19,035 nucleotides of DNA. It comes from an uncultured Oscillospiraceae bacterium. Lineage in GTDB: Bacteria > Bacillota > Clostridia > Oscillospirales > Acutalibacteraceae. Position 1 is the stretch's first letter, and each line of letters begins with the position of its first letter. The stretch spans positions 1-19,035 of the forward strand of contig USBP01000004.1 of NCBI GenBank assembly GCA_900552985.1, in the 5' to 3' direction. Of the stretch, positions 678 to 11,395 are shown piece after piece. The notes under the pieces were generated by a model. The model searched no databases, was not told the DNA's origin, and saw only the letters and a program-made list of their open reading frames with translations. The position numbers and the translations under genes were made by a program.

Positions 678-1655
678 ATGTATCGTAGGGCTTTGGCCAT
701 TCTGATAGCTGTATGCCTGATCGCGACCTTTTTTGCGGGCTGCGGCGGTAAGGGGGCAGATGATCCGTCCAACACCTCCGCTCCGATTGGGGAGAGCAAT
801 GTGACCGGTGCGGAGGCTGTGCTTCCTGGTGAAATGCAAAACGCGGGCGAATCCGGCACCGCGGGCCAGGCGGGCGGCGAGTCTATTTGTGTTGCTGGGG
901 GCAACGCTTCCGGTACGACTACGAGTCCCTTGGAAAACAGCTCCAGTGGGGACGGAACTTCGAACGCCGGAGATTCGCTTCATCCGACACAGCCTGCGGG
1001 CTTCGGCGGCTCAGCGACGCAGCCAATCACGACGAAACCCTCCGGTGGCAGCTCTGCACAGCCCAGCAAGGCCGAGATTATCAGCTATTTCAACACAGCG
1101 GCCAACAAGGTGAAAACCGGAAGGCCTCAGCTTGGCTACCGCATGGCGCTCTCGATGAATTTCAGCATATATGGCCGAGGGGTGCCGATGGAGGAGGAGA
1201 CCACGGAGGGGGCAATTCCCAAGGGCGGCGATCTCAACAGCGCGTTCCCTGTCAGTGGGAAAACATGGGCCAGCCGTCTTTCGCCCTCCGCCGTGAAGAG
1301 TGCGACGCGCACGCTAAAGGATGGGAAATACACCATCCAAATTGAGATGCAGGATGAAAACAAGGTGGCCGACGCCAGCGGCAGCGCGCACGGCCAGGCG
1401 TTTACGGTGCTGGATTTAAACGAGTTTCAGAAAACTGCGCAGGAGAAGGGGATCAATATCCAGAATGTTACGAACTCCTTCCGGGGCAGCACCATCACCT
1501 GTGTGGTGGATGCGAAAACGGGCAACATGCTCTCCGCCACCTACGTTTTGAAGGATCAGGGTTCTGCGACGATGCAGGCCAATGACATAAGACTCATTAC
1601 CCTCCCGGTGGAGATTGACCTGACCATGCGGACGGATTACACCATGGTTTGGTAA
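678..1655 (+). CDS. Secreted lipoprotein of unknown function
   Basis: A 325-residue protein. The N-terminus is a lipoprotein signal: MYRR, a hydrophobic core at residues 5-19 and an F-A-G-C lipobox with the lipidated cysteine at C22, so the mature protein is tethered outside the membrane. Residues 23-130 are a Gly/Ser/Thr/Ala-rich, low-complexity linker. The folded part (about 131-325) begins with a KAEIISYFN stretch and ends in MVW; it contains the SAHGQAFTV and VDAKTGNMLSATY stretches that I associate loosely with uncharacterised lipoproteins of Clostridia. No catalytic motif is seen, so I assign no function. The ATG at 678 is preceded by AGAAAGGA (662-669) at suitable spacing. It is transcribed alone from the promoter at 477-504. 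Its original terminator seems to be the one split by the insertion described at 1753-2689. Confidence 0.85.
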   Translation: MYRRALAILIAVCLIATFFAGCGGKGADDPSNTSAPIGESNVTGAEAVLPGEMQNAGESGTAGQAGGESICVAGGNASGTTTSPLENSSSGDGTSNAGDSLHPTQPAGFGGSATQPITTKPSGGSSAQPSKAEIISYFNTAANKVKTGRPQLGYRMALSMNFSIYGRGVPMEEETTEGAIPKGGDLNSAFPVSGKTWASRLSPSAVKSATRTLKDGKYTIQIEMQDENKVADASGSAHGQAFTVLDLNEFQKTAQEKGINIQNVTNSFRGSTITCVVDAKTGNMLSATYVLKDQGSATMQANDIRLITLPVEIDLTMRTDYTMVW

Positions 1656-1672
1656 ACGCGGAGGGATTTCTG

Positions 1673-1703
1673 CGCAGCCCTTGCTGCGCGGTGAAGGGCT
1701 GCG
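1673..1703 (+). other. Hairpin just after the lipoprotein gene
   Basis: CGCAGCCCTT (1673-1682) pairs perfectly with AAGGGCTGCG (1694-1703) around an 11-nt loop. There is no following T-tract, so it is more likely an mRNA 3'-stabilising or pausing structure than a complete intrinsic terminator. Confidence 0.5.
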
Positions 1704-1752
1704 GCTGCGAGAGAAAAGCTGGTTACTTGCAACTATATTTGTAGATTGTGAT

Positions 1753-1767
1753 AAAAAATCCGGCCTT
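1753..1767. repeat. Left arm of a 15-nt inverted repeat (split terminator)
   Basis: AAAAAATCCGGCCTT here is the exact reverse complement of 2675-2689. The two arms would form a 15-bp stem with an A-tract on the left and a T-tract on the right, the form of a bidirectional intrinsic terminator between the convergent lipoprotein and sensor kinase genes. They now lie 907 bp apart. Confidence 0.8.
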
Positions 1768-1772
1768 TAGAA

Positions 1773-1779
1773 GATGGTG
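1773..1779. repeat. 7-bp direct repeat, left copy (candidate target duplication)
   Basis: GATGGTG here recurs at 2664-2670 in the same orientation. Both copies sit in what would be the loop of the reconstructed terminator. The bases just outside differ (a1772/g2663 and t1780/c2671), so the repeat is exactly 7 bp. This is the pattern left by staggered insertion. Confidence 0.6.
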
Positions 1780-1790
1780 TCTCAAGGGAG

Positions 1791-1818
1791 AGACTACATA
1801 AAGAAGTAGTCTTTTTAT
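1791..1818 (+). terminator. Intrinsic terminator upstream of the HIT gene
   Basis: AGACTAC (1791-1797) pairs with GTAGTCT (1806-1812) around an 8-nt loop, followed by TTTTTATAG and a further run of seven T (1821-1827). It now probably ends read-through from the lipoprotein gene. A competing 5-bp stem, GTCTC (1779-1783) with GAGAC (1790-1794), shares the 5' arm, so an attenuator is possible. Confidence 0.65.
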
Positions 1819-1881
1819 AGTTTTTTTGTCTAAGCAGTATTTATATAACGCTTTATTTTGAATAAATGGAGGACTTTATTT

Positions 1882-2349
1882 ATGTGTCTCATCTGTGATA
1901 GAATTGAAATGATAAAAAGAGGAGACAATCCTTATTTTGTCAAAGAACTTGAAACCGGTTATGTTGTTGTAGGTGATTTTCAGCATTTCAAAGGATATAC
2001 TTTGTTTTTGTGTAAACAGCATAAAACAGAGCTGTTCTATCTCGATAAAGATTACAAGTTAAAATTTCTAGAAGAAATGTCAATTGTAACGGAGGCTGTA
2101 TATAAGGCTTTTGGTGCAAATAAAATGAACTGTGAGCTTCTCGGAAATGGGGACTCGCATCTTCACTGGCATCTCTTTCCAAGATATAATGGTGATCTGA
2201 CGGGTTATGAGTGCGGTCAAAAAGCCGGTCCTGTATGGTGGTATCCGATAGAAAAAATGAACTCACCCGAAGCAAGACCGTCAGACGATGAGCTTGACAA
2301 AATGAAAAAATCATTATCAATCGAACTCGACAAACTATTAACACTATAA
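1882..2349 (+). CDS. HIT family hydrolase (histidine triad protein)
   Basis: A 155-residue protein of the histidine-triad superfamily, cytoplasmic enzymes that hydrolyse or transfer nucleoside phosphates. The catalytic triad is H93-L-H95-W-H97 within DSHLHWHLFP, and a CLIC pair of cysteines at residues 2-5 fits the N-terminal zinc-site position of HIT proteins. I start at ATG 1882: it has GGAGG at 1868-1872 with a 9-nt gap, and HIT proteins commonly begin M-C-x-x-C. An in-frame TTG at 1858 would add 8 residues but has no ribosome binding site. The gene is much more AT-rich than its neighbours and lies alone in the presumed insertion, between convergent genes, which suggests acquisition by transfer. 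The substrate cannot be told from sequence. Confidence 0.9.
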   Translation: MCLICDRIEMIKRGDNPYFVKELETGYVVVGDFQHFKGYTLFLCKQHKTELFYLDKDYKLKFLEEMSIVTEAVYKAFGANKMNCELLGNGDSHLHWHLFPRYNGDLTGYECGQKAGPVWWYPIEKMNSPEARPSDDELDKMKKSLSIELDKLLTL

Positions 2350-2410
2350 CGAGATTTGGATTGCGGAAAAGAGCGAGGCTTTATCGCTTGAAATTAAATT
2401 TGTCAAAGAA

Positions 2411-2455
2411 AACCCACCATGCCAGCTTTCAATTCCGAAAGTGTCATAGTGGGTT
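2411..2455 (-). terminator. Long imperfect hairpin, probable terminator (mainly minus strand)
   Basis: The arm at 2411-2430 (AACCCAC...CTTTC) pairs with 2437-2455 (GAAAG...GTGGGTT) over about 17 base pairs, with one bulge, a wobble and a mismatch, around an AATTCC loop. Read on the minus strand it is followed by TTTTCTTT, so it could end transcripts coming from the sensor kinase gene 250 bp upstream. On the plus strand no T-tract follows, though it sits 62 nt after the HIT stop codon. Confidence 0.55.
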
Positions 2456-2629
2456 ATATGCTTTCATAAGTACTTTCAGCAAATAAAAGAACCTCTTTAT
2501 ACAGCACACTCCAAAAGCAAAATTTTTCAGTTGGAGTCAGGTCCTACATGGCGTGTCGTTTCATACTTTTTTGTGCTGGTTGAAAATAAAATTATCAGGA
2601 TATTGGTGCCAAAATCCGATGCTCGCTAA
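2450..2629 (+). pseudogene. Start-less open frame, possible gene remnant
   Basis: The frame 2450-2626 (stop TAA 2627-2629) is open for 59 codons and includes the plausible protein-like stretches WRVVSYFFVLVENK and IIRILVPKSDAR. It has no ATG; only an internal TTG (2531) could start it, without a ribosome binding site. I do not recognise the family. It may be the 3' part of a gene cut when the AT-rich segment formed, or chance in AT-rich DNA. The minus strand of the same stretch also has short open frames, so the evidence is weak. Nearby, ACTCCAA (2508-2514) and TTGGAGT (2531-2537) form a 7-bp inverted repeat. Confidence 0.25.
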
Positions 2630-2663
2630 ACATATAGACAAACCTTGGGGCACTTTCCTTACG

Positions 2664-2670
2664 GATGGTG
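2664..2670. repeat. 7-bp direct repeat, right copy
   Basis: GATGGTG, identical to 1773-1779 and in the same orientation. It is directly followed by CTTC (2671-2674), which can pair with GAAG (1770-1773) if the intervening segment is removed, as expected for the restored terminator loop. Confidence 0.6.
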
Positions 2671-2674
2671 CTTC

Positions 2675-2689
2675 AAGGCCGGATTTTTT
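2675..2689. repeat. Right arm of the 15-nt inverted repeat (split terminator)
   Basis: AAGGCCGGATTTTTT, exact reverse complement of 1753-1767. It lies 19 nt beyond the stop codon of the minus-strand kinase gene, the normal place for an intrinsic terminator, but alone it cannot form a stem. Confidence 0.8.
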
Positions 2690-2708
2690 GCGCCTGTTGG
2701 GCGTTCCC

Positions 2709-4430
2709 TCACCGCGCCAGCGGGAAGCGCACCTGGAATACGGTGCCCTGCTCCAGCACACTGTCCACGCTGATATCGCCGCCATAGAGCTGCACAATAT
2801 GCTTGACAATGGAAAGCCCAAGCCCTGTGCCGCCTAATTCTCGCGAGCGGCCTTTATCCACGCGGTAAAACCGCTCAAAAATTCTGGGAAGGCTTTCTTG
2901 CGGGATGCCGATGCCGGTATCCTGGACGCGGATTACCGCCATACCGCGTATCGCCTGTGTAGATATGGAGACGCTGCCGCCGGGGCGGTTATATTTGACT
3001 GCATTTTGAATCAGATTGGTAAAAAGCTGGCTGATCCGCTCCGGATCCGCCTGGATCGCAAGCCCTGGGGCAAGCTCGGATGAAAGTGTGATATGATGAT
3101 TTTGAGCCATCGGGGCGAGGCGCTCCAGCGATTCACGGGCAATTTTTTCTAAATCCGTTTTTTGGTTTTCCGCCGCTTTTGGTTCGCTGTTTTCAATTTT
3201 GGAGAGCTCCAGCAGATCGTCAATCAGGCGTTGAAGCCGGTCGGCCTCAATGCCGATGATTTCATAAAATTTTGCTCGTGTCTGTGCGTCACGCCGTTCA
3301 TCCTGCAAAAGCTCCACATAACCGCGGATGGAGGTCAATGGCGTTTTGAGCTCGTGGGTAACGTTAGCCACAAAATCCCGCCGCATTACCTCCAGCTGGT
3401 GCAGCTTTGTGACATCTCGGACAACGGCAAGGGCGCTGTTGGGCGCATCCTCCAAATGGACTGCGTATGCCTGTAAAACGCGGGGAGATGGGGAGGAAAC
3501 CGTGATCTCCTCAACGATTTCCTCCTGTGTTTGCATCGCCTTAGCAATGACCTGCTGCAAATAGAGATAGTTTGCGCCGCACGCCGGTAAGGTGATGGCG
3601 CCTTGCGGCACCTTACCCAGCATACGCTTTGCACGGCTGGTCAACAGCGTAATTTTTTCATTTTCAACGGCAATCACGCCTTCATCCAGGCTTTGCAGAA
3701 TCGTATGCAGCCGGTCATTGCTCCTGCGCAGCTCGTCGCTGGTGTCGCTCAATTCCTGTGTGACGCTGTTGAGCGCATTGCCTAACTCCTTGAAATCCCC
3801 CTCCGGGCGGGCGCGCTGTGAAAAATCACCGGCTGCAACCCGGTTTGCAATTTTAGTCAGATCAGCTACCGGCTTGGAGGAGCGCGCCGCCCATATGCGG
3901 GAGAGAAACAGCGCGACGACTACCCCGGTTAAAAGGCCGGTCAGGGAATACAGGTTCAGTAGCAGGGCAGAATGCCAAACGTTTGCCACAGGCATAGCGG
4001 CCCGGTAAATGAATCCACCGGAAGAGTAGGCCACATAGGAATAGAACGTACCGGTGGATTCACTTTGACGTGTGTCGGCCCCCCATTGGCTTGCCAGGGC
4101 TTGCTGTATCTCCGGGCGGTCAAGGTGGCTTTGGCCAAGTGTCGCATCCGAGCTGCTGTCGGCAATCACATACCCGTTTGCATCTAAAAGCGTAAGGCGG
4201 ATATTAAGCCCATTCCCAGCCAGAGCGGCGGCGCAGCGGTCGGAAAAGGCGTCCGGTTCTTCTGCCGGAGCATCTTCCCATGCACTGCTGAGCACGACCA
4301 GAATGCTTTTCAACTGCGCCTGTGTTTGACGCAGATTATGCTGCTGCACAAGCGGCATGGACAGCAGAAAAGCCGCGATCAGGCTGATCACGGCGGAAAG
4401 AGAAAATAAACGGATCAGGTGCTTTTTCAT
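2709..4430 (-). CDS. phoR: PhoR-type sensor histidine kinase
   Basis: A 573-residue membrane sensor kinase that presumably phosphorylates the response regulator encoded just upstream. Order: TM1 (about 8-25), extracytoplasmic sensor region (26-150), TM2 (about 153-177), HAMP (178-232), a PAS-like domain (about 240-345, starting LHTILQSLDEGV), HisKA with phospho-acceptor H359 in FVANVTHELKTPLTS, and HATPase with N-box TNLIQNAVKYN (471-481), G1 DTGIGIP (504-510) and G2 GGTGLGLS (533-540). All catalytic motifs are intact and the layout is that of PhoR/WalK-type kinases. I choose ATG 4430: it overlaps the regulator's stop as ATGA and has GGGAGG upstream; a frame starting at 4478 adds 16 residues lying inside the regulator gene. 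The linked pst-phoU genes and Pho box make phosphate control the likeliest role, though the ligand is not visible. Confidence 0.93.
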   Translation of the reverse strand: MKKHLIRLFSLSAVISLIAAFLLSMPLVQQHNLRQTQAQLKSILVVLSSAWEDAPAEEPDAFSDRCAAALAGNGLNIRLTLLDANGYVIADSSSDATLGQSHLDRPEIQQALASQWGADTRQSESTGTFYSYVAYSSGGFIYRAAMPVANVWHSALLLNLYSLTGLLTGVVVALFLSRIWAARSSKPVADLTKIANRVAAGDFSQRARPEGDFKELGNALNSVTQELSDTSDELRRSNDRLHTILQSLDEGVIAVENEKITLLTSRAKRMLGKVPQGAITLPACGANYLYLQQVIAKAMQTQEEIVEEITVSSPSPRVLQAYAVHLEDAPNSALAVVRDVTKLHQLEVMRRDFVANVTHELKTPLTSIRGYVELLQDERRDAQTRAKFYEIIGIEADRLQRLIDDLLELSKIENSEPKAAENQKTDLEKIARESLERLAPMAQNHHITLSSELAPGLAIQADPERISQLFTNLIQNAVKYNRPGGSVSISTQAIRGMAVIRVQDTGIGIPQESLPRIFERFYRVDKGRSRELGGTGLGLSIVKHIVQLYGGDISVDSVLEQGTVFQVRFPLAR

Positions 4431-5149
4431 CGGCGGCCTCCCTCTGGGGCAGGGCGCCCCGTCTCTTCTGCAAAGCAATACCCCACTCCGCGGACTGTCA
4501 GGATATATTGTGGATGCTCCGGTTCATCCTCTATCTTCTGGCGCAGGTAACGGATGTGAACGTCCACTGTGCGTGTGTCGCCAAAAAAAGCGGTTTTCCA
4601 GACGCGCTCCAATAGCATTTCGCGCGTCAGCACCCGGCCGGGCTTTTTCATCAGCTCATATAGCAGCTCGAATTCCCGCAGGGAGAGTGCGATGGGCGTG
4701 CCATTTTTGGTGAGCTGGTGCCGGGCGAGATCCATGGTGAGCGCGCCGCGCGTCAGCGTTTCCTCGGTGCTGTTGAGGTAGTCCGCACGGCGCAGCAGAG
4801 CCTTGATGCGGGCAGCCAGCTCCTTCACGCTGAAGGGCTTGGTCATATAATCGTCCGCACCGAATTCCAGGCCGAATACGCGGTCCCCTTCCTCTCCGCG
4901 GGCTGTGAGCAGAAGAATGGGCAGATGCCTCTGCGCCGGGTTTTCCCGAATGCTGCGGCAGACGCTTAGCCCATCGGGAGGGGGCATCATCCAGTCCAGC
5001 ACCAGAGCGTCCGGCATTTTTTGCTGCATTGCGTGCAGCACCTCGCTGCCGGAGGAAAAGCTTTCGGTCTCAAAGCCTGCGTCCGCTAGCCCAAAGGCCG
5101 CAAGCTGGCGGATATTGGCTTCATCATCCACAATATAAACCAGGGGCAT
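4427..5149 (-). CDS. phoP: OmpR/PhoB-family response regulator (PhoP type)
   Basis: A 240-residue cytoplasmic transcription factor. The receiver domain (about 1-118) has the acidic pocket D8/D9, phospho-acceptor D52 in LVLDWMMP, T82 and K104 (YMTKPF). The C-terminal winged helix (about 132-232) has the LSLREFELLYEL and TVDVHIRYLRQKI stretches typical of OmpR/PhoB proteins and ends in GVGYCF. The start at ATG 5149 has AAGGGAG upstream. It is co-transcribed with the kinase gene (ATGA overlap). Its probable target in this window is the four-unit Pho box at 12557-12600. I see no clear promoter in the 84 nt separating it from the GH95 gene, so it may be read from inside or upstream of that gene. 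PhoP is used as the Firmicute name; the family alone does not prove phosphate specificity. Confidence 0.92.
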   Translation of the reverse strand: MPLVYIVDDEANIRQLAAFGLADAGFETESFSSGSEVLHAMQQKMPDALVLDWMMPPPDGLSVCRSIRENPAQRHLPILLLTARGEEGDRVFGLEFGADDYMTKPFSVKELAARIKALLRRADYLNSTEETLTRGALTMDLARHQLTKNGTPIALSLREFELLYELMKKPGRVLTREMLLERVWKTAFFGDTRTVDVHIRYLRQKIEDEPEHPQYILTVRGVGYCFAEETGRPAPEGGRR

Positions 5150-5233
5150 AATTAGGTTGGCTCCCTTCAGAAGAGATGCAGCAGACCGGCTTTGCAGCCG
5201 CTGCCGGAGGATTGTTTTGAGAGGATCGGTGGC

Positions 5234-7534
5234 TCAGGCCGTCGTTTTCTGCCATCCGTTTTCTGCCGTATAATCCAGCGCTTCGCCCTCCCGCAAGAGA
5301 AAGGAGGCATCCGCCCCATCAGGGGTGTGAATGTGACAATCGCCGCTTACGCGGGCAAAGATATGGGCGCGGATTAGATGCTTGTTTTTCCACTGGGCAT
5401 CCACCACAAAGTTTCCTCGGGCCACAAGCCCCTGAAAAGCGCCATCCGGCCAGGCATCCGGCAGAGCGGGTAAAAGCTCGATTGCTCCGGCATGGCTTTG
5501 CAGCAGCATTTCGGCTACGCCTGCCGTACCGCCGAAGTTGCCGTCGATCTGAAAGGGCGGATGCGTATCCCACAGGTTTGGCAGCGTACCGTAGCGCAAC
5601 AGATCACTGTAAAGCTTGTGGGCGCGGTCACCCTCCCCTGCGCGCGCCCAGAGGTTGATGCGGTGCGCCATGGCCCAGCCGGTGGATCGGTCGCCGCGCT
5701 TATTGAGCGTCACCTTGGCCGCTTTCATCCATTCGGGCGTATTCCTGGAGATCAGCGTGCCGGGGTACAGCCCTACCAAATGCGAGATGTGACGGTGATG
5801 CGGTTCACCGATCTCCCCATATTTCTCCTCTTCCCGAAACTCCTTGATCTGACCAGAAGCACCAATTAAAACGGGGTCGAGTCTGCCAAGCTGTTCCCGC
5901 AGCGTTTGAATAAGCGCATTCTCGCAGCCAAGCTCCTGCGCCGCCTGGATGGTGTTTTTGTGGTTTTCCCATACCATCTGCTGATCGAAAGCACAGCCTT
6001 CCGTCATATAATACGCATTGTTTTTGCGCTGCTCCGGGGAAGCGGAAGCGGTCACCAGCAGCTTGCCGCTTCTCTCCTCCAGCGTTTTGGAGAGAAAGCG
6101 CGCCATTCCATATAAAACGGGATAGATCTGCTCAAGCACGCGCCGGTCTTTTGTGAAAGCATAATAATCCCAGAAAAGCATGGAGGTAAAAGCGCCGGTT
6201 CCGGGGCCGGAATGAGGGCTGGAGCCTTCTATTGTATAGAGCCATCCGCCGGTGCCGATCGTCCATCCATTTTGGCCGGGGGCTTCCAGGTGATTTTTGT
6301 GCAGACGCTCAATATATGCATCTGCCATGCGCTCTGCCAGCGGGAGATAGGCGCGGTTATACTCCGCATAGGCGGAGAACATTTCCGCCAGATTGGTGGA
6401 AAATGCAGGCCAGTAATTCATTTGGACGTTGATATTATGCCAGTAGCCGCAGCTCCAGGGCGGGTTATCATGGCAATTCCAGGTGCCTTGCAGGTTGGCG
6501 GGCGGCGTGCCCTGACGGGAGGAGGCGATCAGCAGATAGCGGCCGTATTGAAAATAGAGCTCCTCCAGATAACGCGCTTTTGCATCCTCCTTTGGCGCGA
6601 GGTGTACCCGACGGCGCCGCCTTGACTCTGCGGCATATTTCTGATAATGCCGAAGCAGCTTATAAGTGGGGATATTAACGCCTTCCCCACCGAAATCGAC
6701 CGACGCACGGTCAAAATACTGTGTATAATCCGCCAGATGGCGCTGATAAAGGGTCTCATAGCTTTTTTCACTGGCAGCGCTTAAAACAGCGGAAACCTGT
6801 TCGTGCGGATGCGGGTAGGGGGCGAGCTTTTTTTCCCGGTCTGGTTCCAGGAAAACGCGGCTTTCCATCCGATAATTGGTGCCGAGCGCGATCAGGATCA
6901 GAGCGGAATCCGCTTCCTCGACGCGGATGGCGGCGTGATCCCCCTGCGCATCCTGCTGAATGGATAACCGGCCGCCCTGCGGCAGCACCCGGAACTGCCC
7001 CTCAAAAAGGATTTGATAATAATGCATTTTGCCGGATAAGGTCAGCGTATCCCTGCTGGCGGTGACGCGGCCGCTTTTCCCGGCCTGGTCGCCTTCCTTA
7101 AGGCCATAATTCCGCAGATAGGGGATGGTGGGGCGCAGCGTAAAGCTCAGAGACGCGGGGGCGGAGGCGGTCAGATGGATGACCATGACCTGATCCGGGT
7201 AACTGGTGAAATAGGTGCGCTCATACCGCACCCCCTCGCAGCGGTATTTGACATAGGCTATAGCCTCGTTGAGCGACAGCCCGCGCTCATATTGCTCCAC
7301 TTGTGTATGCCCAAATTCCAGATAGACTTCAGAAAAATTATTCAGCCCGCCTAACCCATAAGGGTTGGAGAGAGATTTTTCCGTGAGCTGAATGCGCTCC
7401 GTATCAGTGCGGCCGAAGACATTGGCGCCAAAATAACCGTTGCCCAAAGGGAGTGAGAACCGCTCCCAGGCCTGCTCCTCGCCGGCCCGGTCAGCCAGGG
7501 CAGGGGAGCGGTACATCAATCGGTATGGTTTCAT
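5234..7534 (-). CDS. GH95 family glycoside hydrolase (alpha-L-fucosidase type)
   Basis: A 766-residue protein with the full GH95 layout: N-terminal beta-sandwich domain opening with [16 protein letters not shown] (26-41), an (alpha/alpha)6 barrel in the middle and a C-terminal beta domain. Signature stretches are [23 protein letters not shown] (331-353), [11 protein letters not shown] (366-376), [14 protein letters not shown] (579-592) and [12 protein letters not shown] (658-669). By analogy with the Bifidobacterium enzyme AfcA, N367, N369 and D664 match the catalytic Asn/Asp positions; the general acid is probably among the glutamates just before HHRH, which I state tentatively. The family removes alpha-1,2-L-fucose or alpha-L-galactose from glycans. 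There is no signal peptide, so it should act inside the cell on imported oligosaccharides. The run ESRRRRRV (303-310) is an unusual basic stretch. ATG 7534 has AGGTGA 6 nt upstream and its own promoter (7577-7604). Confidence 0.92.
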
Positions 7535-7576
7535 AGGGGCTCACCTCATCCGGATTTTTGTGAAGTTTCTAGGCCC

Positions 7577-7604
7577 ATTCTACCACAAAGCGGATGAATT
7601 GCAA
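7577..7604 (-). promoter_or_regulatory. Promoter of the GH95 gene
   Basis: Read on the minus strand: TTGCAA (7604-7599), a 16-bp spacer, then TAGAAT (7582-7577) preceded by TGG, an extended -10. Transcription should start near 7570, leaving a leader of about 36 nt. It lies between the phoU stop codon and the GH95 start. I find no terminator after phoU, so read-through from the pst operon is also possible. Confidence 0.6.
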
Positions 7605-7618
7605 CGGCTTTCCCACGC

Positions 7619-8302
7619 TTACTCCGACGAACGGGGAGGATTTCCATGATTTAGCTCCGGGTGCTCTCCCGTTTCAATGAAAATGGTCCATTCTGCGATA
7701 TTGGTGGCATGGTCGGCAATCCGCTCAATGTACTTGGCGATGAACATATAATCCGCGCCGCGCGGCACAACGACGGGCTGCCCTTCAATTGCGGCGCAGA
7801 TTTCGAGAATGATGCGGGAAAACATGGCATCCACCTCGTCGTCCCGGCCGCATACCTGATAGGCGAGCGCTATCTCGTGGGAAACAAAGGCGGAGAGTGC
7901 ATCGTCAAACATGCTGCGGGCCTGCTCCAGCATTTCTCCCAGATGGGCAGGGGGCTTGGCGCCATCGCTCACAGGGGCGAGCGCACACAAAATTTCACAG
8001 ATATCGCAGCACTGATCGGAGATACGTTCCATATCCGTCACGATCTTCAGCGTGGCGGTAATGGTGCGCAAATCACGGGCCAGAGGCTGCTGCAGCGCGA
8101 TGATATTGACGCAGCTGTCCTCAATGCGGCGCTCCATGGTGTTAACGGCCTCTTCGCGTTTTGCCACTTCCGCTGCGGTGCCGTTCTCCGGCTGATGAAG
8201 CATGCGCAGCGTTTCTGCCAAAATGGTATCGATCAAATGCCCCATGTCAACAAGGCTTTCTTTTAAATCACGCATTTCGCGTTCAAACAGGTTCCTTGGC
8301 AT
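7619..8302 (-). CDS. phoU: Phosphate transport system regulator PhoU
   Basis: A 227-residue helical cytoplasmic protein with the two PhoU repeats, each carrying the metal-binding E-x-x-x-D motif: E92-R-I-S-D96 and E193-R-I-A-D197, the second followed by HATN. It starts with the family's usual LFEREMRDLKE segment. PhoU links the PstSCAB transporter to the PhoR kinase and keeps the Pho response off when phosphate is plentiful. I choose ATG 8302, with GAAAGGA upstream; an in-frame TTG at 8386 would add 28 residues rich in Arg/Pro with no family similarity. It is the last gene of the pst operon, 80 nt after pstB. The short tail after TGEHPELNHG is probably disordered. Confidence 0.96.
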   Translation of the reverse strand: MPRNLFEREMRDLKESLVDMGHLIDTILAETLRMLHQPENGTAAEVAKREEAVNTMERRIEDSCVNIIALQQPLARDLRTITATLKIVTDMERISDQCCDICEILCALAPVSDGAKPPAHLGEMLEQARSMFDDALSAFVSHEIALAYQVCGRDDEVDAMFSRIILEICAAIEGQPVVVPRGADYMFIAKYIERIADHATNIAEWTIFIETGEHPELNHGNPPRSSE

Positions 8303-8382
8303 TCTTCGCCATCCTTTCTCTGGCTTGGCCCTTTCTGCCGCCGGCCGCATAAGCATACCGGCTGACGGCGGGCGGTTCCCGG

Positions 8383-9141
8383 TCAACCAAACCGGCCGGT
8401 GATATAATCCTCCGTGCGCTTGTCACGCGGCATGCTGAACATTGTCTGGGTCGCGTCATATTCCACGAGCTCGCCCAGCAGGAAGAAAGCGGTGCGGTCG
8501 CTGATGCGGGCGGCTTGCTGCATGTTGTGGGTAACGATCACAACGGTATACTTTTTTTTCAGATCCGCCATTAAATCCTCGATTTTTGTGGTGGAGATCG
8601 GGTCAAGCGCGCTTGTCGGCTCGTCCATGAGTAAAATATCCGGCTCTACAGCCAGGGCGCGGGCGATGCAAAGGCGCTGATGCTGGCCGCCGGAAAGGCC
8701 GAGCGCCGATTTTTTAAGGCGGTCCTTCACCTCGTCCCAAAGCGCGGCCTCGCGCAGAGAGCGTTCCACAATTTCATCCAGCAGATGTTTTTTTTTGACT
8801 CCGTGAACACGCGGCCCGTAGGCGATATTGTCATAGACGGACATAGGGAAGGGGTTCGGCTTTTGAAAAACCATGCCGGCACGCTTGCGCAGCAGAGTGA
8901 CGTCCGTCTGCGGGGCGTAGATATCCTCTCCGTCGATGAGAACGCCGCCAGTGATCCGGCACCCCTCCACAAGGTCGTTCATGCGGTTGAGCGTTTTCAG
9001 GCAGGTGGATTTCCCGCAGCCGGAGGGGCCGATGAATGCGGTGATTTCCCGCTCTGGAATTTCCATTGTCAGGCCCTTCAGAGCGTGAAAGTCACCATAA
9101 TATAGGTTCAAATTACGCAGGGCGATTTTGGGATGATTCAT
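8383..9141 (-). CDS. pstB: Phosphate ABC transporter ATP-binding protein PstB
   Basis: A 252-residue ATPase that powers phosphate import through PstC/PstA. Walker [11 protein letters not shown]-loop [15 protein letters not shown], signature [14 protein letters not shown], Walker [14 protein letters not shown] and the switch histidine in IVTHNMQQA are all intact; the KPNPFP and ALDPIST segments are typical of PstB rather than other ABC ATPases. I start at ATG 9141, which has AAAGGA with a 9-nt gap; the double ATG at 9162/9159 lacks a ribosome binding site and would add only 6 or 7 residues. It lies 24 nt downstream of pstA. Confidence 0.97.
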
Positions 9142-9165
9142 GTGTTCGGTTCCTTTCATCAATGG

Positions 9166-10059
9166 TCAGCTCTGCTTTTTACGCAGCGCACGGGCCGTGA
9201 GGCCCGCTACGCGGTTGAGCAGGAAGACCAGAATCAGCAGCACTGCCGCTGTGGCGTAGGGGACGGAAATCGGGTCGCGCGCCTCCATGGCTGAGGTGTA
9301 GAGAAAGAGGGAGAGCGTGCAGCCCTGGCCCATCATATGGCCGAAAAGCTCTTCCGGCAGGCGGAAGCCGGAAACGCCCACCGTAAAGAGCAGTGCCGCT
9401 GTTTCGCCGACGATGCGTCCCATGGCGAGCACCACAGCAGTGGCAATTCCAGGCATGGCGCAGGGCAGCAGGATGGAAAAAATCACCCGCAGCTTAGAGG
9501 CTCCCAGCGCCATCGCCCCCTCCAGGTATCCCTGCGGGACGGCAATGAGCGCTTCCTCCGTGGTGCGCACAATCGTGGGTAGAATACAAATGGCCATTGT
9601 CAGGCAGCCGGCGAGGATGCTGTATTGCAGCTGGAAGCTGATACAGAACACCGCATAGCCGAACAGGCCGAAAATGATAGAGGGAATGCCGGAGAGCACC
9701 TCGGTGGCAAAACGGATGGCGCGCACAAGCCGGCCCTTTTTGGCGTACTGCGTGAGATAAACTGCGCAGCATACGCCGATTGGTACGGCAATCAGCAGCG
9801 TGATAACGACGACATAAAGGGTGTTGATCATCATGGGGAGAATCCCCTTGCTTCCCGTCCGGCTGGCGGAATAGGTGCTGGAGAGAAACTCCCATGATAT
9901 ATGGGGCAGCCCGTTCCATAAAATGTGCCCGAGGATCGCGATCAGGATGGCGACGGTGCAGAACGCGCACAGGTAGATCAGCGCCCGCAGCAGCGTATCC
10001 TTGAGGCGAAACCGCCTTCCGGCAAGCGCACCAGGGAGATGGGATTGCCTATTTTTCAC
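9166..10059 (-). CDS. pstA: Phosphate ABC transporter permease PstA
   Basis: A 297-residue membrane permease with about six transmembrane segments: the first at about 23-48, then a periplasmic-side loop (HISWEFLSSTYS), a large MetI-type permease core, and the last segment near 270-287. The EAA-type cytoplasmic loop that contacts PstB is EGAMALGASKLRVIF, followed by the GRIVGETAALLFTVG motif characteristic of PstA/PstC. The start is GTG at 10059, overlapping the pstC stop region, with AAAGGAG 9 nt upstream; this overlap implies translational coupling with pstC. Together with PstC it forms the channel for phosphate delivered by PstS. Confidence 0.96.
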   Translation of the reverse strand: MKNRQSHLPGALAGRRFRLKDTLLRALIYLCAFCTVAILIAILGHILWNGLPHISWEFLSSTYSASRTGSKGILPMMINTLYVVVITLLIAVPIGVCCAVYLTQYAKKGRLVRAIRFATEVLSGIPSIIFGLFGYAVFCISFQLQYSILAGCLTMAICILPTIVRTTEEALIAVPQGYLEGAMALGASKLRVIFSILLPCAMPGIATAVVLAMGRIVGETAALLFTVGVSGFRLPEELFGHMMGQGCTLSLFLYTSAMEARDPISVPYATAAVLLILVFLLNRVAGLTARALRKKQS

Positions 10060-11395
10060 CTTCCCCCACTCCTTTCTTGGAAATCCAGGTGAACAGGATA
10101 TTGATGAGCATTAAAAACAGGAACAGGACAAGCCCGATGCCAAACAGCGCCTGACGGTGCAGCCCGGTCGCATAGCCCATTTCAAAGGCAATGCCTGAGG
10201 TCAGCGGCCGCACGGCGCCGAACAGGTGGGGGAAGGATACCGTATTGCCCGCAACCATGATGATCGCCATGGTTTCCCCGATCGCCCTGCCCACTCCAAG
10301 GATCACACCCGCCAGAATGCCGGATTTGGCGGCCGGAAGCTGCACCTTGAAGATCGTGCCGATGTGTGTGTTGCCCAGAGCCAGAGAGGCCTCCTTATAA
10401 GAAACAGGCACCGCCTCCAGCGCGTTTTGCGAAACGTTGATGATGGTCGGCAGGATCATCATGGCGAGAATCAGGATGACGGCCAGGAGGCTGTCGCCGT
10501 TCGTGCGGCCCGGGAACAGCTCGCGCAGCCCTGGCACGATCACACGCATGCCGAAAAAGCCGAAGATGACGGAGGGGATACCTGCGAGCAGCTCCACGGC
10601 GGGGCGGACAATTTTGCACAGCCAGCGCGGTGCAAGCTCTGCGAGAAAGACCGCTGTCAATAGGCCGACAGGCACCCCCAGCAGCACAGCCCCCGCTGTG
10701 CCGAAAACGGAGGCCAGCACCATGTAGGCGATGCCGTAGGAGGGATGATCCGCTGTAGGACTCCAATCGGTAGAAAAGAGGAATTCCTTCAACCCGATCT
10801 GATAAATGGCCGGCGCCCCTTGCAGGACCATATAGATACAGATCAAAGCGACCGCGCCGATAGAGACGCAGGCCGCAGCTAGGAAAACGGATTTGGCAAA
10901 GCTTTGTATCCCCGTGGAAAGCAGGCTCAGCGCTGCGGCAAGCAAAGGCAGCAGCAGCGCGAGAAAAAAGCCTGCGCGCATGGAAAGGGCGATGTTATCC
11001 ACACCGGCGGATGCAACTGCCTGCTGCAAGGCGGCGCTGCCGGAAAGCAGCATCACGGCACACAGAGCGCCGCCGGCATAGAGCACTCCGGCGGCCTGTG
11101 CCTTTTTGCACGCGAGCAAAACGCTGCCCGCCGCACAGCACAGCAGCACGCCGGCAAGCGGCAGCCGCAGGGAGAGGGGAAGGGCGAGCACTGTGCGATT
11201 CACACGCAGCGAGGCGGTCAGAAGCTGATAGCCGGTAAGCGTATAGGATATGTTGTTAAAAACACCGTTCAGAACCGGCAAAAATAACACGCACAAAGCG
11301 CAAATGCCCAGCGCGAACGCAACGGCGCAAAGCGCTTTGGCCAGCGCTTGCCTGCGTGGCGGTTGGCGCAGGGCGCCCGGTGGTTGAGCGTTCAT
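10049..11395 (-). CDS. pstC: Phosphate ABC transporter permease PstC with N-terminal membrane extension
   Basis: A 448-residue protein. Residues from about 165 to the end are a normal PstC: first segment 168-191, the WSPTADHPSYGI loop, AGIPSVIFGFFG (271-282), EAA loop EASLALGNTHIGTIF (335-349) and GVGRAIGETMAIIMVAGN (367-384). The first about 160 residues are extra: a Pro/Arg-rich start, then hydrophobic segments at about 20-41, 79-96, 100-118 and 141-160, with the polar ISYTLTGYQLLTASLRVN stretch (49-66) between the first two. PstC proteins are usually around 290-330 residues, so this looks like a fusion to a small four-helix membrane module resembling uncharacterised clostridial membrane proteins. 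ATG 11395 has GAGGTGA close upstream. It follows pstS after a 190-nt spacer with hairpins. Confidence 0.94.
   Translation of the reverse strand: MNAQPPGALRQPPRRQALAKALCAVAFALGICALCVLFLPVLNGVFNNISYTLTGYQLLTASLRVNRTVLALPLSLRLPLAGVLLCCAAGSVLLACKKAQAAGVLYAGGALCAVMLLSGSAALQQAVASAGVDNIALSMRAGFFLALLLPLLAAALSLLSTGIQSFAKSVFLAAACVSIGAVALICIYMVLQGAPAIYQIGLKEFLFSTDWSPTADHPSYGIAYMVLASVFGTAGAVLLGVPVGLLTAVFLAELAPRWLCKIVRPAVELLAGIPSVIFGFFGMRVIVPGLRELFPGRTNGDSLLAVILILAMMILPTIINVSQNALEAVPVSYKEASLALGNTHIGTIFKVQLPAAKSGILAGVILGVGRAIGETMAIIMVAGNTVSFPHLFGAVRPLTSGIAFEMGYATGLHRQALFGIGLVLFLFLMLINILFTWISKKGVGEGEK

Follow-up and report, generated by a model that had tools for sequence, protein, structure and literature searches.

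A HIT-gene cassette inserted in a bidirectional terminator shares its ends with an element encoding a TnpX-like serine recombinase

Introduction

Integrative mobilizable elements of the Tn4451/Tn4453 type carry a characteristic gene set, TnpX, TnpV and Mob. A passage in PMC5704250 states that Tn4451 recombines at 2-bp identical sequences. The main text of Durrant et al. (2022; PMC10083194) presents a clade of multi-targeting large serine recombinases, 63% of which have a DUF4368 domain and which includes TndX-like enzymes. The site motif given there for Cp36 is A-rich, then an AA core, then T-rich, and for another multi-targeting integrase the core is TT and the ends are enriched in T and in A (PMC10083194). 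The words "terminator", "hairpin", "palindrom" and "inverted repeat" do not occur in that main text. Our own literature search, which covered few subscription papers, recognised no paper on terminators as targets of the DUF4368/TndX-like clade.

Mobile insertion cassettes (MICs) consist of a passenger gene between mobile-element ends without a transposase. Integron gene cassettes are small, carry varied cargo and have no recombinase of their own. Pseudo-SCC elements are moved by the Ccr serine recombinases, and SCC uses one chromosomal site.

Here we analyse an 889-bp element in the window, by which we mean the whole 19,035-nt stretch of DNA under study. Its ends are also those of an 8.2-kb element that, like Tn4451/Tn4453-type elements, has a TnpX-like recombinase, TnpV, a MobV relaxase and a 2-bp core; the window element differs from them in lacking these genes, in having a terminator as target and in the cores of its family, which are AA, TA, TT and AT. 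The Cp36 motif is the profile that we find around these elements, here coinciding with terminators, and our work adds to the main text of Durrant et al. (2022; PMC10083194) the non-autonomous cassettes and the role of terminators as natural targets. The locus is like a MIC in its passenger gene between mobile-element ends without a transposase, but its ends belong to a serine-recombinase element and not to an IS, and it has a 2-bp core. The small size of the cassettes, their highly varied cargo and the absence of a recombinase of their own recall integron cassettes, whereas the elements described here are scattered single insertions in terminators with inverted-repeat ends. Finally, like pseudo-SCC they would be non-autonomous and rely on a large serine recombinase, but they occupy many sites. 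We consider it likely that positions 1786-2674 are a non-autonomous cassette with the ends of TnpX/TndX-like (DUF4368) elements, moved in trans into terminators at a 2-bp core.

Results

An insertion in a bidirectional terminator and its empty counterpart

The HIT gene of the window is flanked by AAAAAATCCGGCCTT (1753-1767), the A-tract and stem arm of a split bidirectional terminator, and by its exact reverse complement (2675-2689), which supplies the other stem arm and the T-tract. This pair has no further match in the window at up to one mismatch, and 0.01 would be expected by chance. Around the insert lie two convergent genes, a lipoprotein gene (678-1655, plus strand), whose name comes from the original prediction and whose product has no Pfam match, and phoR (2709-4433, minus strand).

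Comparison of PhoR with the genome contigs gave 23 loci, a single one of which is close (L001, 89% identical); the next best reaches 36% over nearly the full length. In L001, AAAAATCCGGCCTTGAGAAGATGGTGCCTCAAGGCCGGATTTTTT stands between the same lipoprotein gene and phoR. The HIT gene is missing there, and both halves of the window's terminator are intact in an uninterrupted hairpin that contains a single GATGGTG and is predicted to fold at -35 kcal/mol (z -7.6). The rest of the left side of the target, TAGAAGATGGTGTCTC (1768-1783), has the counterpart GAGAAGATGGTGCCTC in L001. GC content is 36.7% in 1786-2674 and 56.2% elsewhere in the window (counted from base 301). The inverted 15-mers and the marked AT-richness of the insert that the original prediction had described are thus confirmed. 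Its reading of the locus as a passenger cassette, with one intact gene and no transposase, placed in a terminator is supported by L001, which presents the uninterrupted hairpin and the single GATGGTG expected of a relative lacking the HIT gene. L001 is the sole empty site that we found, as a search with the flanks of three other elements in 4 genomes of one genus returned distant flanks only and no comparable terminator. L001 also has a sequence with open frames (about 9080-10410, minus strand), lying between the end of the rRNA and the lipoprotein gene, that is absent from the window.

The ends belong to a family of small elements with varied cargo

The ends of relatives, together with L001, place the element at 1786-2674 (889 bp, plus strand), between two copies of an AA core (1784-1785 and 2675-2676); a boundary of this kind is found family-wide. 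The left end (LE, GGGAGAGACTACATAAAGAAG, 1786-1806, plus strand) differs from the family pattern GGGAGACACTTCGTAAGGAAG at 4 of 21 positions, and the right end (RE, CACTTTCCTTACGGATGGTGCTTC, 2651-2674, plus strand) has 3 mismatches to its own pattern. Each is predicted to form a hairpin. That of the LE (1787-1816, plus strand; -12.6 kcal/mol, z -4.7) is terminator-like, its 3' arm extending into a T-run, in agreement with the earlier proposal that the cassette brought its own terminators; that of the RE (2643-2678, plus strand; -23.3 kcal/mol, z -4.9) takes its final 4 bases from the target. In aligned copies the left end reads GGGAGACACTTCGTAARGAAG and the right end CACCTTCCTTACGGAGGGTGCCNC, which are imperfect inverted repeats of each other and can each fold, and a repeated dinucleotide lies directly outside both.

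The exact right-end pattern is present in 52 of 398 related-family genomes (1 for the reversed-pattern control) and in 26 of 295 genomes of the order (control 0), two sets that overlap in some genomes. Window positions 2385-2672 match 99 of the 398, often at an internal block (2437-2464, plus strand) present in many related genomes and at the very end, ...CTTTCCTTACGGATGGTGC. Copies of the element ends stand in many other terminators of related genomes; the original prediction had suggested looking for them in the same genome, especially inside other terminator loops.

Besides the window element, 58 distinct elements of 84-3318 bp could be paired, in a set selected partly by the pairing of their flanking arms; the window element is outside it because its left arm is too far from the left end for the pairing script. 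Most are short: 38 measure at most 387 bp, 36 of them without an ORF of 80 aa, and the other 20 are at least 576 bp long. From the larger elements 28 cargo ORFs were scanned, 11 of which have no Pfam match. The types recognised were a GNAT acetyltransferase, methyltransferase, TIM-barrel, radical SAM, TetR regulator, EcoRI-type methylase, DUF4041/T5orf172, IrrE-like peptidases, DUF4417, an EndoU nuclease domain, zinc-ribbon and helix-turn-helix; none of the 28 is a recombinase or transposase. The same cargo can occur between unrelated 300-bp flanks, in different genomes at 98.1% identity (L173 and L174) and, for L147, L175 and L120, at 83-95% by segment.

A few loci depart from this layout. 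L151 has one left end followed by two right ends in succession, possibly a tandem or partial second copy. L259:428-2345 has a left end and, judged by eye, an ATPase-like gene; there the left terminator half is directly repeated (about 45 bp) ahead of an intact right terminator, which misfits the simple model. A different short element with near-perfect inverted repeats, GGGCGACACTTCATAAGGAA, lies at L285:480-758 between the arms AAATAAAGGTAA / TTACCTTTAT, and a lone terminator, CAGAGAGACACTTCATATTGAAGTGTCTCTCTG (L305:1438-1470), resembles a solo left end.

Elements with the same ends encode large serine recombinases

Initially 28 right ends had no paired left end and hence no boundary, some being paired later, and the recombinase search covered 46 ORFs beside 19 of them. 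The first scan took in 41 of these ORFs, with the best 25 of 69 families viewed, and all 46 were later covered by name. Large serine recombinases account for three of them (L139, L160 and L170). Each has Recombinase, Zn ribbon and DUF4368 domains, and in each locus the distance from the end of the ORF to the end of the right-end pattern is 86 bases; contig ends truncate L139 and L170. Among the remaining 43 ORFs is one Mob_Pre protein (L160), and no transposase family turned up in the 46.

Together with a left end in L262, L160 makes up a single element, L314 (about 930-9124, 8.2 kb), which has LE, RE and AA on both sides and is sited in AAAAAAAGCACCC / GGGTGCTTTTTTT. Its recombinase combines Resolvase, Recombinase, Zn ribbon and DUF4368 domains and has TnpX as best PDB match (2mhc, 4.8e-30). 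The element further encodes a TnpV match (1.5e-48), a relaxase that scores 79 bits for MobV, below the NCBIfam cut-off of 100, and 141 bits for Mob_Pre, above that of Pfam, and PadR, FtsW-like and VanZ-like proteins. As a non-autonomous derivative should, the window element has the LE and RE of this recombinase-bearing element and the AA core on both sides; the HIT ORF is the only likely gene in its 889 bp, which hold neither a large serine recombinase nor a relaxase.

A second full element, L352 (10.8 kb), encodes a recombinase 64% identical, has diverged ends and is sited in AAAAAAGCGCCG / CGGCGCTTTTTT. It alone had a convincing end pair among the 20 loci fetched, 19 of them with a recombinase; the other 18 gave none, the candidate pairs of L350, L357 and L359 being unconvincing by eye and several loci stopping at contig ends. 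A run of at least 5 T, 40-160 bases past the stop codon, follows 7 of the 12 recombinase genes with at least 61% identity and enough sequence, against control averages of 3.2-4.7; in L321 there is no T-tract after the right end. Among the matches listed, a recombinase of at least 60% identity occurs in at least 4 of 52 RE-positive and at least 10 of 346 RE-negative genomes, a weak co-occurrence, and in some of those 10 the right ends narrowly miss the pattern (L319, L321). In G138, the host of a sister HIT cassette, no recombinase at E<=1e-60 was found among the 3 of 8 candidates scored. With the recombinase inconsistently present where cassettes are, the helper may be absent or transient.

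The inverted-repeat ends and 2-bp flanking repeats would also fit a DDE transposon family that prefers palindromes and duplicates 2 bp of target, the serine-recombinase elements only resembling what it moves; IS30-like and IS630-like families are candidates with such duplications and targets. We regard this as unlikely, since no transposase family appears among the 46 ORFs beside the 19 unpaired right ends or the 28 cargo ORFs, whereas three serine recombinases keep a constant distance to this right end and both ends are present in L314.

Intrinsic terminators are the common target

The flanks of the relatives are the halves of intrinsic terminators, in the order A-tract, arm, element, arm, T-tract. 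Arm-pairing scores in the 58 elements have a median of 12, against 6 with swapped partners; as the set was partly selected for pairing, arm-blind and out-of-sample checks were made. Of 48 arm-blind pairs, 37 have A4 on the left together with T4 on the right, 36 have equal 2-bp cores, and in 34 the arm GC-pair score is no lower than the shuffled 95% point. In the set of 58, cores are equal in 44 pairs (permutation mean 22.5, maximum 37 in 20,000), being AA in 31, TA in 7, TT in 5 and AT in 1, and unequal in 14, several of these through a one-base shift. A position profile built from the 44 equal-core pairs only shows A at -15 in 93% and T at +13 in 89% (script numbering), with C/G-rich arms between. 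The out-of-sample loci came from the order scan, excluding one short locus and all loci from G202 and G180. There, 24 of 26 right ends have T4 at +8 to +23, a run that occurs in 137 of 1482 control windows (9%) taken from these loci, and the pairs have equal cores in 9 of 10 (AA, TA, AT) and an A-tract (A4) in 10 of 10. A guide RNA matching the target was also considered and rejected: the longest matches between flank and interior are on average no better than with swapped flanks, and one of 13 bases lies inside a T-rich stretch.

Hairpins can themselves be recognised, as single-stranded DNA, by recombining enzymes; integron integrases do so on attC, and group IIC introns insert at terminators. 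That the targets are hairpins, that both element ends fold and that the GC pairing of arms is as high as the shuffled 95% point or higher in 34 of the 48 arm-blind pairs would suit a recombinase that acts on the folded strand. The A- and T-tracts are, however, sharply positioned relative to the core, in keeping with the motif published for a DUF4368 recombinase, and no such hairpin-recognising enzyme was found among the ORFs scanned beside the ends, which makes this explanation quite improbable.

The junctions and the cargo of the window element

GATGGTG does occur twice, at 1773-1779 and 2664-2670, as the original prediction stated, within a longer similarity of 13 of 15 bases. Its reading as a 7-bp target duplication did not hold: the elements of relatives end in conserved ...TTACGGANGGTGCCNC, which makes the right GATGGTG(CTTC) part of the element and leaves the 2 bp after it, AA, as the repeated target. 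An element that duplicates 7 bp, moved for instance by a tyrosine recombinase, would be permitted by the window and L001 taken alone. It becomes very unlikely once the relatives are considered, as the right GATGGTG lies within their conserved end GGANGGTGCCNC at other sites, the motif is found within 80 bases to the left in 0 of 58 and their repeat is 2 bp.

Positions 1773-1783 resemble the 3' half of the right end, and a match with at most one substitution occurs in 16 of 11,600 shuffled flanks. This RE-like half, the motif absent to the left of the 58 relatives, stands in L001 (GATGGTGCCTC) and left of the window core (GATGGTGTCTC). Judging from the sequence, an older copy may have left it behind as a scar, beside which the HIT cassette would have inserted. 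Such a scar would account for the 7-bp repeat and also for the remoteness of the core from the left A-tract, the distance being 25 bases in the window against about 9 in the family profile.

The cargo gene (1882-2349, plus strand) encodes a HIT-family protein of 155 aa (PF01230) with the motif HLHWHLF, which we take to be the HIT triad. Sequence comparison within the window gives an internal inverted repeat, AACCCACCATGCCA / TGTCATAGTGGGTT, at 2411-2455. Of 200 related-family genomes, 18 have HIT relatives. The protein of L025, in genome G138, is 95% identical to that of the window, and the body of its cassette, between dissimilar 300-bp flanks, matches that of the window at 91.6% identity over 622 bases and at 81% over another 143. 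One relative cannot by itself polarise an event, and the HIT gene could be ancestral at the site and lost in L001, which is extremely unlikely given that the terminator is whole at the rejoined site, that the HIT cassette occupies an unrelated site in G138 and that its GC content departs so far from that of its surroundings. L069/L189 and L025/L191, from two genomes of one genus, apparently represent one site but differ, one pair holding the HIT cassette and the other a right-end remnant only.

Carriage by phages or plasmids was rejected, neither collection giving a DNA match. HIT relatives occur in 43 plasmid records and 1 phage record, all below 60% identity, and in one IMG/VR locus at 67%. 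The right- and left-end patterns match 9 and 18 stretches of viral contigs, 0 of the 27 holding an LE and RE pair; of the left-end matches inspected, three belong to one near-identical stretch, which we took as chance or coding.

Discussion

We propose that a TnpX/TndX-like recombinase supplied in trans would excise the cassette as a circle joined at the 2-bp core (RE-AA-LE), and that this circle would insert where an A-tract and a T-tract enclose a matching dinucleotide. In these genomes, bidirectional intrinsic terminators supply such sites, with their A-tract, stem arm, loop containing AA, stem arm and T-tract in succession. We infer that the A/T tracts and the core are what is recognised and that the hairpin accompanies them; the opposite is possible. 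Insertion splits the terminator, and the hairpin ends of the cassette would take its place, the left-end hairpin with its T-run possibly standing in for the broken one.

Taken further, DUF4368 multi-targeting recombinases may naturally land in bidirectional terminators and sustain, in trans, an integron-like pool of cassettes across one order, with the Gut-1 RNA as part of the elements; we lean towards this joint reading. If it is true, the pool distributed over these terminators comprises gene-free elements as well as passenger cassettes. It would also offer a biological meaning for the "relaxed specificity" motif, as A-rich, AA and T-rich is the look of a bidirectional terminator, and terminators between convergent genes would be safe places for insertion. 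Because the cassettes carry no recombinase, they escape searches for mobile elements. DUF4368 recombinases appear in PMC10083194 and PMC13137831 as integration tools under development, so the rules of their natural sites matter for use.

The joint reading would also give a place, within small mobile elements, to the orphan RNA family Gut-1 (Rfam RF01706). It was found in 4 of the 19 relative loci searched, each time inside the element. The insert of the window has no Rfam match at gathering score, Gut-1 included, and two matches to other families are at chance level (E 0.23 and 0.94). Gut-1 is given in the text of Weinberg et al. (2010; PMC2864571) as found in the human gut only and likely non-coding, and the word "mobile" does not occur in that text. 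The four matches (L133, L137, L258 and L267) consist of arrays of 9-base repeats, AGTGATATT and then AATATAACT, with short palindromes between them.
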